Assembly: GCA_945862165.1 (NCBI GenBank)
Contig: CAMAXI010000009.1
Location: 1 to 64,000 of the forward strand
Length of the DNA: 64,000 nt
Origin: Chryseobacterium gleum
Lineage (GTDB): Bacteria > Bacteroidota > Bacteroidia > Flavobacteriales_D > Crocinitomicaceae
Direction: 5' to 3'
Shown: positions 18,852 to 21,567 of the stretch, one piece after another
How positions within the stretch are numbered: the first letter of the stretch is position 1
How the letters are laid out: each line of letters begins with the position of its first letter
Program-made: the position numbers and the translations under genes
Notes under the pieces: generated by a model
Seen by the model: only the letters and a program-made list of their open reading frames with translations
Databases searched by the model: none
Told to the model about the DNA's origin: nothing

Positions 18852-19261
18852 TTCGATTCTCTCTTAATTCGAATTACTTTCGCAGGTTTCGTTGTTTCAT
18901 ACAAACCTCTAGCTTCCAATTTTTTTATTAATATTTCTCTTTTCGTTGCTTCTTCTAATTTTGCTCTTGTTTCCACAAATTCAGCTGTTTTAGCGTCTAA
19001 TTCCACCTGTGTAGTTTCCATATTCTTTACCAAACTTTTACCGTAATATCCCTTGGAAATAACGATAATAAATATCGCGAATAAGAAAAAAACATAAGTT
19101 AAGTTGTTGATTACAAAATCCTGCACCAAAAACTCTCCGTTTAAAATTTGAAGAAAAATATTGCTGTTTTTACCTGCTTTCTTTTTCTTTGCTTTTTTCT
19201 TCACAGGAGATTGAGATACTTCCTCAATTACATCCTCTTTCTTGATGTATTCGTTATCCAT
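18848..19261 (-). CDS. ftsL: FtsL-like division protein
   Basis: 137 aa small bitopic protein. A Lys-rich cytoplasmic part (KKKAKKKKAGK, about 18-30) precedes one membrane helix (about 50-70, YVFFLFAIFIIVIS) and a short coiled coil rich in Glu, Ala and Lys (about 78-115). The sequence alone is not diagnostic. The call rests on topology and its place between rsmH and ftsI, overlapping both. FtsL with FtsB and FtsQ activates the FtsW-FtsI synthase in the periplasm. Confidence 0.75.
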   Translation of the reverse strand: MDNEYIKKEDVIEEVSQSPVKKKAKKKKAGKNSNIFLQILNGEFLVQDFVINNLTYVFFLFAIFIIVISKGYYGKSLVKNMETTQVELDAKTAEFVETRAKLEEATKREILIKKLEARGLYETTKPAKVIRIKRESK

Positions 19262-20174
19262 TGTCTCTTTCTGCTATTCGTAATTTTGCACTTCTTGCTC
19301 TTGAATTCACTGCAATCTCTTCTTCTGATGGAGAAATCGGCTTTCTTGTAATGTCACTAAACGGTTTTAAGATATTTCCAAAAAAATCTTTTTCAATGTG
19401 TCCATCTAAATTTCCACGTTTTAAGTAATTTTTCACCAATCGATCTTCTAAAGAATGATAAGACATTACTACTAAACGTCCACCTGGCTTCAATACCTCA
19501 TCGGTTTGCATCAAGAATTTCTCCAACACATCCAACTCGTTATTCACTTCCATACGGATTGCTTGAAACACTTGCGCAAAAAATTTATGATCTTTAAATT
19601 TTGGGGCAATTGGTGCTAATGCCTCCATCAACTCCCCGGTAGTGTGTATTGGTTTTGCTTGACGTGCTCTACAAATAGTCCCAGCAATTTTTCCAGGAGA
19701 AGTTAACTCACCATACTTACGTAAAATCTTAATTAATTGATCTTCTTCATATTCATTCACCACTACAAATGCAGACAACGCCCCGTTTTGGTTCATACGC
19801 ATATCTAAAGGATCATTAGAACGAATCGAAAATCCACGCTTCCCTTCATCAAACTGGTGGGAAGAAACACCTAAATCCGCTAAAATCCCATCCACTTTTT
19901 CAATTCCAATGGCACGTAAGTGGTTTTTAAGAAATGAAAAATTAGAGGGTATCAACTGAAAATTTGGCGCATCCCAAGCGTTTGCTAATGCATCAGGATC
20001 TTGATCAAAGGCAATTAACTGTCCTTTTTCTGAAAGTTTTGAAAAAATCGCTTTCGAATGTCCGCCACCACCAAAGGTAACGTCTACATACAACCCGTCT
20101 GGATGGATATTTAACCCTTCTAAACAAGCCTCCAGCATTACTGGTATGTGGTATAATTCGTTATTCTGTGTCAT
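19254..20174 (-). CDS. rsmH: 16S rRNA (cytosine-1402-N4)-methyltransferase RsmH
   Basis: 306 aa. It methylates N4 of C1402 in the ribosomal P site with S-adenosylmethionine. Signatures are YHIPVMLEACLEGL at the start, the SAM loop DVTFGGGGHSKAI (about 35), DLGVSSHQFDEGKRGFS (about 105), DPLDMRMNQ and the C-terminal SYHSLEDRLVKNYLK. The start is ATG 20174, inside the 3' end of mraZ (14-base overlap); a GTG at 20183 would add three residues. The second gene of the dcw operon, as in most bacteria. Confidence 0.97.
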   Translation of the reverse strand: MTQNNELYHIPVMLEACLEGLNIHPDGLYVDVTFGGGGHSKAIFSKLSEKGQLIAFDQDPDALANAWDAPNFQLIPSNFSFLKNHLRAIGIEKVDGILADLGVSSHQFDEGKRGFSIRSNDPLDMRMNQNGALSAFVVVNEYEEDQLIKILRKYGELTSPGKIAGTICRARQAKPIHTTGELMEALAPIAPKFKDHKFFAQVFQAIRMEVNNELDVLEKFLMQTDEVLKPGGRLVVMSYHSLEDRLVKNYLKRGNLDGHIEKDFFGNILKPFSDITRKPISPSEEEIAVNSRARSAKLRIAERDNG

Positions 20175-20619
20175 CGATATCACCCATTACTTCCTCTGCC
20201 AAATCAGCAAAGTCTGCCATGTTTCCTTCGATAACATCGAAGTACTTGGTTTTATCCCAGATTTCAATTCTGTCGTTGTATGCAATAAGCATCACATCCT
20301 TATCTAAACCTACTCGCTCCATCAACATGGATGGAATTAAAATTCTACCAACACCATCCAAGGCAATTGCTTTCGCACCTTGATGAAATAAACGGTAGAA
20401 CATTCGATTTTTAGGCTTAAATAAGTTCATTTTAGAAAGTTTATCACTTAATCGGTCCCACTCATTCATTGGGTAAAGTGTTAAACAATCCTCAAATCCT
20501 TTATTCAACATGAATTTCTCTTGGGCAGCAGGAGACAATTGCTTACGCAATGACGCAGGAAATAAGAAACGCCCTTTCGCGTCTAATCTTACTTCATATT
20601 CTCCTACTAAACCAGCCAT
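20161..20619 (-). CDS. mraZ: Transcriptional regulator MraZ
   Basis: 152 aa with two tandem SpoVT/AbrB-like DNA-binding halves: GEYEVRLDAKGRFLFPASLR (residues 5-24) and GAKAIALDGVGRILIPSML (about 86-104). MraZ forms a ring-shaped oligomer and in other bacteria represses its own dcw operon by binding tandem GTGG-type boxes about 10 bases apart. Such boxes are present directly upstream (20657-20680). It is the first gene of the dcw operon. Confidence 0.96.
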   Translation of the reverse strand: MAGLVGEYEVRLDAKGRFLFPASLRKQLSPAAQEKFMLNKGFEDCLTLYPMNEWDRLSDKLSKMNLFKPKNRMFYRLFHQGAKAIALDGVGRILIPSMLMERVGLDKDVMLIAYNDRIEIWDKTKYFDVIEGNMADFADLAEEVMGDIDDTE

Positions 20620-20656
20620 AACAAATTAATAATGGGTAAAATTAGTGAAGATTTCT

Positions 20657-20680
20657 CCACTTTTTACCACCAATTTACAC
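20657..20680 (-). promoter_or_regulatory. Tandem MraZ boxes upstream of mraZ
   Basis: Read on the minus strand, GTGT, GTGG and GTGG start at 20680, 20670 and 20660, exactly 10 bases apart; the full strings are TTGGTGG-TAA-AAAGTGG. This fits the AAAGTGG-N3 tandem box described for MraZ in other bacteria. The array lies between the candidate promoter and the mraZ start, where a bound repressor would block initiation. Confidence 0.65.
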
Positions 20681-20694
20681 TATGTTAATAACTT

Positions 20695-20725
20695 GTAACG
20701 TATAAAGCGATAAAAATGTTTCAAA
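20695..20725 (-). promoter_or_regulatory. Candidate mraZ/dcw promoter
   Basis: On the minus strand TTTG (20725-20722) is followed after 19 bases by TACGTTAC (20702-20695), an imperfect match to TAnnTTTG with correct Bacteroidota spacing. The MraZ boxes begin 15 bases downstream. Confidence 0.45.
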
Positions 20726-20770
20726 TATTTTTAAAATAACTGAAAATCAATATTTTATATATTAATAATT

Positions 20771-20806
20771 GAGTGGTAAAAAGTGGTAGTTAATGTAAAA
20801 ATGTGG
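20771..20806 (+). promoter_or_regulatory. Second MraZ-box array, opposite orientation
   Basis: On the plus strand GTGG occurs at 20773, 20783 and 20803, so boxes 1, 2 and 4 of a 10-base register are filled: GAGTGG-TAA-AAAGTGG ... AATGTGG. It mirrors the array at 20657-20680 and faces engB. It may extend MraZ binding by DNA looping or serve as a separate operator. Confidence 0.5.
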
Positions 20807-20945
20807 AAAAGTTAATTTAATTAATCAATGAATTAACGTGGCAATTCAACAATGAGATTTCATTGAGAAACCCTTCGACAAGCTCAGGATAAAATTTGAG
20901 GATTTGAAGATGTGGGAAATTGAAGATTATTGATTTGAAAATGAC

Positions 20946-20953
20946 TAAATTTG
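20946..20953 (+). promoter_or_regulatory. -7 element (TAAATTTG) of engB
   Basis: TAAATTTG is a perfect TAnnTTTG match about 18 bases before the ATG at 20971. It shows that the upstream in-frame ATG at 20920 cannot be the real start. Confidence 0.6.
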
Positions 20954-20970
20954 CACAAAAACATCCCATT

Positions 20971-21567
20971 ATGATTATCAAAACAGCAACATTCACAGTA
21001 AGTAACTCCGACCATAAACTTTGTCCAGACGACACTAAACCAGAATTCGCATTTATCGGAAGGTCAAACGTTGGTAAGTCGTCTTTAATCAACATGTTGA
21101 CTAACCAAAAAAGCTTAGCGAAAACTTCAGGAACACCTGGAAAAACACAGTTGATTAATCATTTTGAAATTAACAACGAATGGTATTTGGTCGATTTACC
21201 TGGGTATGGTTTTGCGAAAGCTTCTAAAAAAGCACGTCATGGGTGGGAAGAATTTATTGCAGCGTATTTAACGCAACGCAAAACATTATTAAACACGTTT
21301 GTATTGTTAGATGCAAGATTACCACCACAAAATATCGACTTAGAATTTATGGGTTGGTGTGGTGAAAAAGAAATTCCTTTCTCCATGGTTTTCACGAAGT
21401 TAGACAAATTATCTTCTTCCGAAAAACAAAAAAATATTTTGAGTTATAAAAAGGAAATGTTGAAACAGTGGGAAGAATTACCACCAGTATTTGCAACCTC
21501 TAGTGAATCTAAATTCGGTAAAGAACCTTTGTTGAATTATATCGATGAGATTTTGAAGACGTGTTAA
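20971..21567 (+). CDS. engB: Ribosome biogenesis GTPase EngB (YihA/YsxC)
   Basis: 198 aa, typical length. It is a TRAFAC-class GTPase needed for large ribosomal subunit assembly. G motifs are GRSNVGKSSLIN (G1, about residues 33-44), TSGTPGKT (G2), DLPGYGFAKAS (G3) and FTKLDKLSS (G4). The start MIIKTATFTVSN matches the family N-terminus. A frame open from 20920 would add 17 unrelated residues and begin upstream of the -7 element. It is a single gene, convergent with the dehydrogenase at 21647. Confidence 0.96.
   Translation: MIIKTATFTVSNSDHKLCPDDTKPEFAFIGRSNVGKSSLINMLTNQKSLAKTSGTPGKTQLINHFEINNEWYLVDLPGYGFAKASKKARHGWEEFIAAYLTQRKTLLNTFVLLDARLPPQNIDLEFMGWCGEKEIPFSMVFTKLDKLSSSEKQKNILSYKKEMLKQWEELPPVFATSSESKFGKEPLLNYIDEILKTC

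Follow-up and report, generated by a model that had tools for sequence, protein, structure and literature searches.

Facing MraZ-type box arrays upstream of mraZ in Crocinitomicaceae suggest a split operator

In the stretch of DNA analysed here (the window, 64,000 nucleotides), two arrays of MraZ-type boxes face each other upstream of mraZ, and comparison with related genomes places the upstream array with mraZ and not with engB, the divergent gene that it faces. The explanation we consider best, and rather probable, is that the two arrays are halves of one MraZ operator, which MraZ would bridge into a loop of ~105 bp at the mraZ promoter. We favour a loop formed by MraZ because the arrangement is strictly kept, because the arrays face each other and because the spacing between them changes by approximately whole helical turns. 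The boxes themselves are attributed to MraZ because they match the Mollicutes MraZ site in their core and in their 10-bp period. Few bacterial regulators are as widespread as MraZ, whose gene heads the division cluster. To our knowledge, neither the way in which the MraZ ring recognises DNA in vivo nor the strength of its control over the cluster has been settled.

Results

The mraZ gene of the window (20161..20619, minus strand) heads the division and cell-wall cluster. Its product matches the Pfam family MraZ (PF02381, E 1.2e-33), scoring 115.4 bits against a cut-off of 23 in two stretches, that is, two MraZ domains, and is related to the solved MraZ 1n0e (E 2.6e-18). As is characteristic of the MraZ family, the gene stands first in the dcw cluster, ahead of rsmH (the MraW methylase, 19254-20183), which follows it directly; the genes beyond rsmH we take to be ftsL, ftsI, murE and mraY. 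Divergent from mraZ, on the plus strand, lies a GTPase gene (20971..21567; Pfam MMR_HSR1, E 8.7e-19), which we presume from its sequence to be engB.

The proximal array (20657..20680, minus strand) consists of GTGG boxes at 20660-20657 and 20670-20667 and a weaker GTGT at 20680-20677, with a period of 10 bp. The distal array faces it from the plus strand (20773..20806), with GTGG at 20773-20776, 20783-20786 and 20803-20806 in one 10-bp register, whose skipped position at 20793 reads ATGT. When the sequence was re-read, the boxes were found on exactly the coordinates and strands listed in the initial annotation, which had also noticed that the two arrays share a string: both pairs, proximal and distal, read GTGGTAAAAAGTGG.

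Taken alone, these pairs are weak evidence, because shuffled windows contain GTGGN6GTGG at least twice in 8 of 100 cases (mean 0.58), and the window itself contains it twice, both times in these arrays. Across the 2.89-Mb genome the pattern occurs 20 times (11 + 9), against 25 times (10 + 15) for the reversed control, with two of the 20 at this locus. The opposed double pattern CCACN6CCAC-N85-115-GTGGN6GTGG is found once in the window and in none of 100 shuffles, which bears out the initial description of two opposed MraZ-type arrays in 10-bp register. The exact string GTGGTAAAAAGTGG is present in the genome at these two places only. Direct GTG-core repeats with a 10-bp period upstream of mraZ are what is expected of a MraZ operator, but a single array of at least three boxes, all on the mraZ strand, is not what we see. 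Instead, there are two strict proximal GTGG boxes (plus GTGT in the window) and a facing array, and we therefore regard the locus as a variant and not as a single-array MraZ operator.

Conservation was followed in the family Crocinitomicaceae, to which the genome of the window belongs, with the named members Brumimicrobium, Lishizhenia, Taishania and Fluviicola. From 116 family genomes with a mraZ match, 110 loci were read (G039, G055, G076, G097, G101 and G114 were left out), and 105 of the 110 carry both exact GTGG-N6-GTGG pairs, one near -50 on the mraZ strand and the other near -155 on the opposite strand. The boxes are thus conserved in related genomes, a comparison that the initial annotation had proposed. 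Two of the exceptions are cut by contig ends (L011, L063), and three have one weak, degenerate box (L101, L106, L126). Counted from the mraZ start codon, the proximal pair lies at -43 to -64 and the distal pair at -144 to -171. Third boxes are optional, a proximal GTGT being present in 25 and a distal GTGG in 23 of the 105 loci. With a weight matrix, the distal site exceeds 15 bits in each of the 108 distinct family loci whose upstream DNA is long enough (109 rows, G022 having been entered twice, as L097 and L161), a result that is partly circular, as the matrix was trained on 105 of the same loci. The distal search with this matrix covered 60-160 bp from the proximal array, and L302, L175 and L186, in which the facing match is further off, were counted as absent.

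In the order as a whole, the double pattern is found in 165 of 299 genomes (113 of the 117 family genomes and 52 of the 182 others), and its reversed control in 7 of 299. Because 113 of 117 family genomes carry the double pattern, conservation lifts the paired arrays far beyond chance. The four family misses comprise a degenerate box (G031, the genome of L126) and three assemblies in which mraZ is missing or truncated (G274, G304, G106). The hits outside the family in G182, G247 and G289 look like chance, that in G182 not being at mraZ. Facing pairs with a gap of 103-104 bp also occur in 6 of 8 genomes of f33/g116, from another class (L380 and L381 are without them), and f39, outside the family, has one facing pair with a gap of 91 bp. 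However, a distal array is lacking within 60-160 bp of the proximal array in many relatives, which counts against a loop.

Two further observations concern box placement in other families. Candidate facing GTGG pairs, 130-215 bp from the proximal array, were seen in 7 of 60 loci (L373, L374, L375, L377, L379, L386, L417). In f17 (L163-L185), 11 of 16 loci carry an additional GTGG on the same strand, 21 bp upstream of the array's first box and often lying across TTATTAACAA from it.

Within the family, GTGGTAAAAAGTGG is present in 87 of 100 genomes, and the sites listed are at known mraZ places save one clear off-locus site, those in G194 and G537 not being tied to mraZ. The sole clear off-mraZ copy in these 100 genomes is at G015:C7:34038-34051. 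A control string gave 21 matches in the same 100 genomes, and for this reason off-locus GTGGTAAAAAGTGG sites may be selected against. A wider MraZ regulon was considered and rejected, exact sites away from mraZ being no more frequent than the control.

Two opposed arrays also form an inverted repeat, in the window one of 21 nt with arms that are 86% complementary, and such a repeat could fold into a hairpin, as DNA or RNA, or be bound by a protein other than MraZ. We judge this improbable. The arms vary independently, with unequal 6-bp spacers in 58 of the 105 loci, and equal spacers were observed in 47 loci against 46.4 expected from random re-pairing. Because the match of the spacers equals random re-pairing, the arms appear to be kept as separate sites and not as a stem, and a hairpin or cruciform was set aside for this lack of co-variation. 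A different protein is disfavoured, as the motif corresponds to the established MraZ site and hardly occurs away from mraZ.

The proximal array keeps a fixed offset from a promoter-like element. In Bacteroidota the -7 consensus is TAnnTTTG, and the predicted -7 element of the window's mraZ promoter, TAATTTTA, lies at 20637..20644 on the minus strand. TAnnTTT follows the last GTGG of the proximal array by 14-16 bp in 102 of 105 family loci, only 4 of which have the final G, and the full TAnnTTTG stands at the same offset from the proximal array in all 16 f17 loci. Because the element follows the last box by 14-16 bp, the proximal array would cover the -33 region of the mraZ promoter; its overlap with the mraZ transcription start, as initially proposed, is probably wrong. 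A second mraZ promoter at the central element described below (TTG, 18-19 bp, TACGTTA) was dropped as a candidate, as the TA of the supposed -7 element is not conserved.

Orientation alone would also suit a divergent promoter, driven by the facing arrays and serving a small RNA or a short gene, an idea to which we give hardly any credence. Promoter-like TAnnTTT occurs at the equivalent offset after the distal array in 1 of 105 family loci, against 102 of 105 for the proximal array, conservation beyond the distal array is weak (at most 0.6 bits per position), and 20100-21200 has no Rfam match. Between the distal array and engB, at 20871-20888, lies CCCTTCGACAAGCTCAGG, a type of string that is presumably a common dispersed repeat in this phylum. 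A similar string is found upstream of the distal array in L003 and L006.

The distal array does face engB in the window, as the initial annotation had pointed out, but the joint control of engB suggested on that basis is not supported. The upstream neighbours of mraZ fall into 44 clusters among 103 family loci (built from crude reading frames), with engB in 10 of 103 and genes pointing towards mraZ in 29 of 103, and the distal array holds its place whatever gene lies upstream. It stays with mraZ where engB is elsewhere: in G041, from the window's own genus, engB is 2.1 kb off, yet the distal array stands at -155 (L003) and there is no site near engB (L423). Co-regulation would place a MraZ site wherever engB lies, but none was found in the 600 bp before engB in any of the 24 family loci in which over 600 bp separate the engB start from mraZ. 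Of the 30 family engB loci, the six with mraZ within 600 bp score 24.4-27.5 bits and the other 24 at best 6.0, on either strand; one of these 24, in G030, still has engB as the nearest mraZ neighbour, across a 789-bp spacer. Where engB adjoins mraZ, it keeps a TAnnTTTG of its own, 21-33 bp ahead of its start, in 9 of 10 family loci (predicted in the window at 20946..20953, plus strand, TAAATTTG), and the rarity of a promoter-like element after the distal array (1 of 105) speaks against control of engB as well.

In the order and class, nevertheless, mraZ often has engB as a divergent neighbour, which was found upstream in 48 loci (L163-L328), mostly ~1 kb off, and the neighbourhood is therefore old. 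The ~1-kb interval often has room for one gene. Within this larger set, the distal array is absent from all 16 f17 loci, where engB is ~1 kb upstream, and is also absent at 60-160 bp from L301, L302, L313 and L317, where engB is divergent and less than 500 bp from mraZ; L302 has a facing site beyond that range. L298 and L299 have engB within 500 bp of mraZ and a distal array. One detail favours engB: in genus g1, a third distal box is present in 6 of 6 engB-adjacent loci, against 2 of 4 with another neighbour. Because engB is a common, mostly more distant, neighbour of mraZ in the order, we rate its control slightly higher, and the loop slightly lower, than the family data would suggest. Even so, regulation by the distal array of engB, or of whichever gene lies upstream, jointly with mraZ is in our view very unlikely. 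In short, engB is probably not a target of the MraZ array, with an effect in the window's own genus possible.

The inner gap separating the arrays clusters around 92, 104 and 115 bp, in steps of about one helical turn, and also takes some intermediate values; such spacing is compatible with looping, as initially suggested. Among the 105 family loci this gap is 94-95 bp in 5, 102-108 bp in 94 and 110 bp in 6, and in f3 it is 91-94, 103-105 or 114-115 bp, the ends of the distribution being cut by pattern searches that covered gaps of 85-115 bp. Two classes are found within a single genus in g18 (95 and 104-106 bp) and in g54 (93-94 and 103-104 bp). Against a loop stand genera g17 and g22, with gaps of 107-110 bp that lie between the main classes, and one f9 genome with a gap of 131 bp.

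At the level of genera, the gaps cluster in helical phase (R 0.73 at 10.5 bp, 36 genera), a value reached in none of 20000 uniform or Gaussian draws. A jitter null was beaten in 3000 of 3000 trials, with or without family f1, and without f1 the R of 0.73 compares with 0.507 for the 99.9% quantile of that null. For this test, gaps outside the family were taken from coordinates, with f10 set at 93 (83 if counted from the outer box); the test omitted L324 (score 14.4) and the 130-215-bp pairs and included G582 and G563, not tied to mraZ, as well as the values of f33/g116 and G424, which are tied to it. Phase clustering of this kind is expected of the second operator of a looping autoregulator, although the best-fitting period is broad and nearer 11.5-12 than 10.5 bp, which counts against it. 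DNA loops in vivo have a period somewhat above 10.5 bp, a value that the gap data do not fix.

Near the middle of the inter-array DNA lies a central element, which in the window reads TGAAAC (20718..20723, minus strand). Of the 105 family loci, 99 contain T[GT][TAC]AAC, and in 85 of these it is separated from the proximal array by 51-53 bp; a looser central motif stands at 51 bp from the proximal array in 22 of 29 f3 loci. In loci with the element at this position, the gap varies distal of it (~41, 52 or 63 bp), and the distance from the centre to the proximal array is mostly constant at 51-53 bp. As boxes repeat every 10 bp, the choice of box in arrays of three or four can by itself move the gap by about one turn. 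Because the central element is fixed and the change falls on its distal side, we read the steps in g18 and most of f3 as real shifts and not as box choice; in g54 they may be either. The element, TGAAAC or TGTAAC, is perhaps a site for a bending protein or a second regulator.

The spacing also bears on whether the distal array needs a loop at all. It could be an auxiliary MraZ operator for mraZ that works without one, for instance as a storage or nucleation site, as a block to upstream read-through, or by way of a second ring touching RNA polymerase. The attachment to mraZ, the number of arrays and their conservation fit such an operator equally well, and the classes of spacing might arise if the arrays have to share one face of the DNA with no loop being closed. 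We find it doubtful in that it leaves unexplained both the facing orientation in 105 of 110 loci and the changes in spacing by approximately whole turns.

The number of proximal boxes differs with the presence of the distal array. Of 153 loci with a distal array (G022 counted twice), 145 contain no more than two strict proximal GTGG; of the 63 loci without one within 60-160 bp, 48 contain three or four. This trade-off is not significant on independent pairs of the MraZ tree (4 on supported branches). The distal-array trait needs 8 changes on this weakly resolved tree, which was built by a quick method from the 109 distinct sequences among 117 full-length proteins and in which support is weak at many forks.

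Adjoining the proximal array is TTATTAACA (20683..20691, minus strand), which we liken to a DnaA box. A DnaA-box-like element of the type TTATNMACA adjoins the proximal array in the family, with TTATNAACA found within 32 bp upstream of it in 88 of 105 loci, compared with 3 of 105 for the reversed string and 0 of 104 far upstream. In f3, the DnaA-box-like TTATNCACA lies at -120..-45 upstream of mraZ in 27 of 29 loci (reversed, 0 of 29); beyond f3, 10 of 50 order loci and 1 of 28 class loci contain it, and a looser form, TTATNNACA, is found in 16 of these 50 and in 15 of these 28. A link of DnaA, or replication initiation, to the division cluster is conceivable. In an unrelated setting, the accessible text of one report describes a LexA site before a mraZ homologue from gut metagenomes, bound in vitro (PMC3998124).

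Discussion

The looped operator that we favour would work as follows. MraZ, the ring-forming product of the adjacent gene, would bind both the proximal array, at the -33 region of the mraZ promoter, and the facing distal array about ten helical turns upstream. Both arrays would be held on the same face of the DNA, with the DNA between them forming a small loop, and the division and cell-wall cluster would thereby come under cooperative autoregulation, most probably as repression. We infer MraZ binding, looping and repression from the placement and conservation of the sites.

A more specific form of this model, which we put forward tentatively as a possibility, is that a single MraZ ring clamps the split operator. 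Here the usual series of three or four boxes would be divided into two facing halves of two boxes each, with one ring gripping both and a loop of whole turns between them; one ring could do so because there are two boxes on each side. The loop would enclose the central and DnaA-box-like elements and could integrate the level of MraZ with replication initiation, and the arrangement may have arisen or been lost several times in Bacteroidota.

Natural variants whose spacing differs by approximately whole turns, in many genomes, make MraZ looping directly testable and provide a ready variant set. The comparison also corrects a tempting inference, namely that an array facing engB means control of engB.

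A literature search of titles and abstract openings, with most subscription journals outside its coverage, returned no facing MraZ arrays among the matches listed. In E. coli, Eraso and colleagues are said to have described in 2014 MraZ boxes at the mraZ promoter that form a single direct-repeat array. The likeness to our locus would be autoregulation of the dcw cluster via MraZ on upstream boxes; unlike that single array, there are two facing arrays here. The loop repressors of lac, gal and ara use two operators roughly 90-200 bp apart, with whole-turn spacing and an oligomeric regulator. The locus described here differs from them in its ring-forming protein and opposed direct-repeat arrays, and in that looping is deduced from sequence. 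It resembles them in having two spaced operators, whole-turn spacing, an oligomeric regulator and a promoter within or beside the putative loop.

In Mollicutes, an experimentally defined MraZ operator, (AAAGTGKN3)3, lies upstream of the dcw operon (Fisunov et al. 2016; PMC5282649, PMC8475190). According to the accessible text of these sources, a single MraZ octamer occupies the site (PMC5282649), and in Mycoplasma genitalium the cluster is repressed by its own MraZ (PMC8475190). As described there, the Mollicutes operator is one direct-repeat run, with no mention in that text of a facing second array, and in M. genitalium it is likewise the sole occurrence in the chromosome. The likeness extends to the boxes themselves, in the GTG core, the AAA before it, the 10-bp period and the direct repeats upstream of mraZ.
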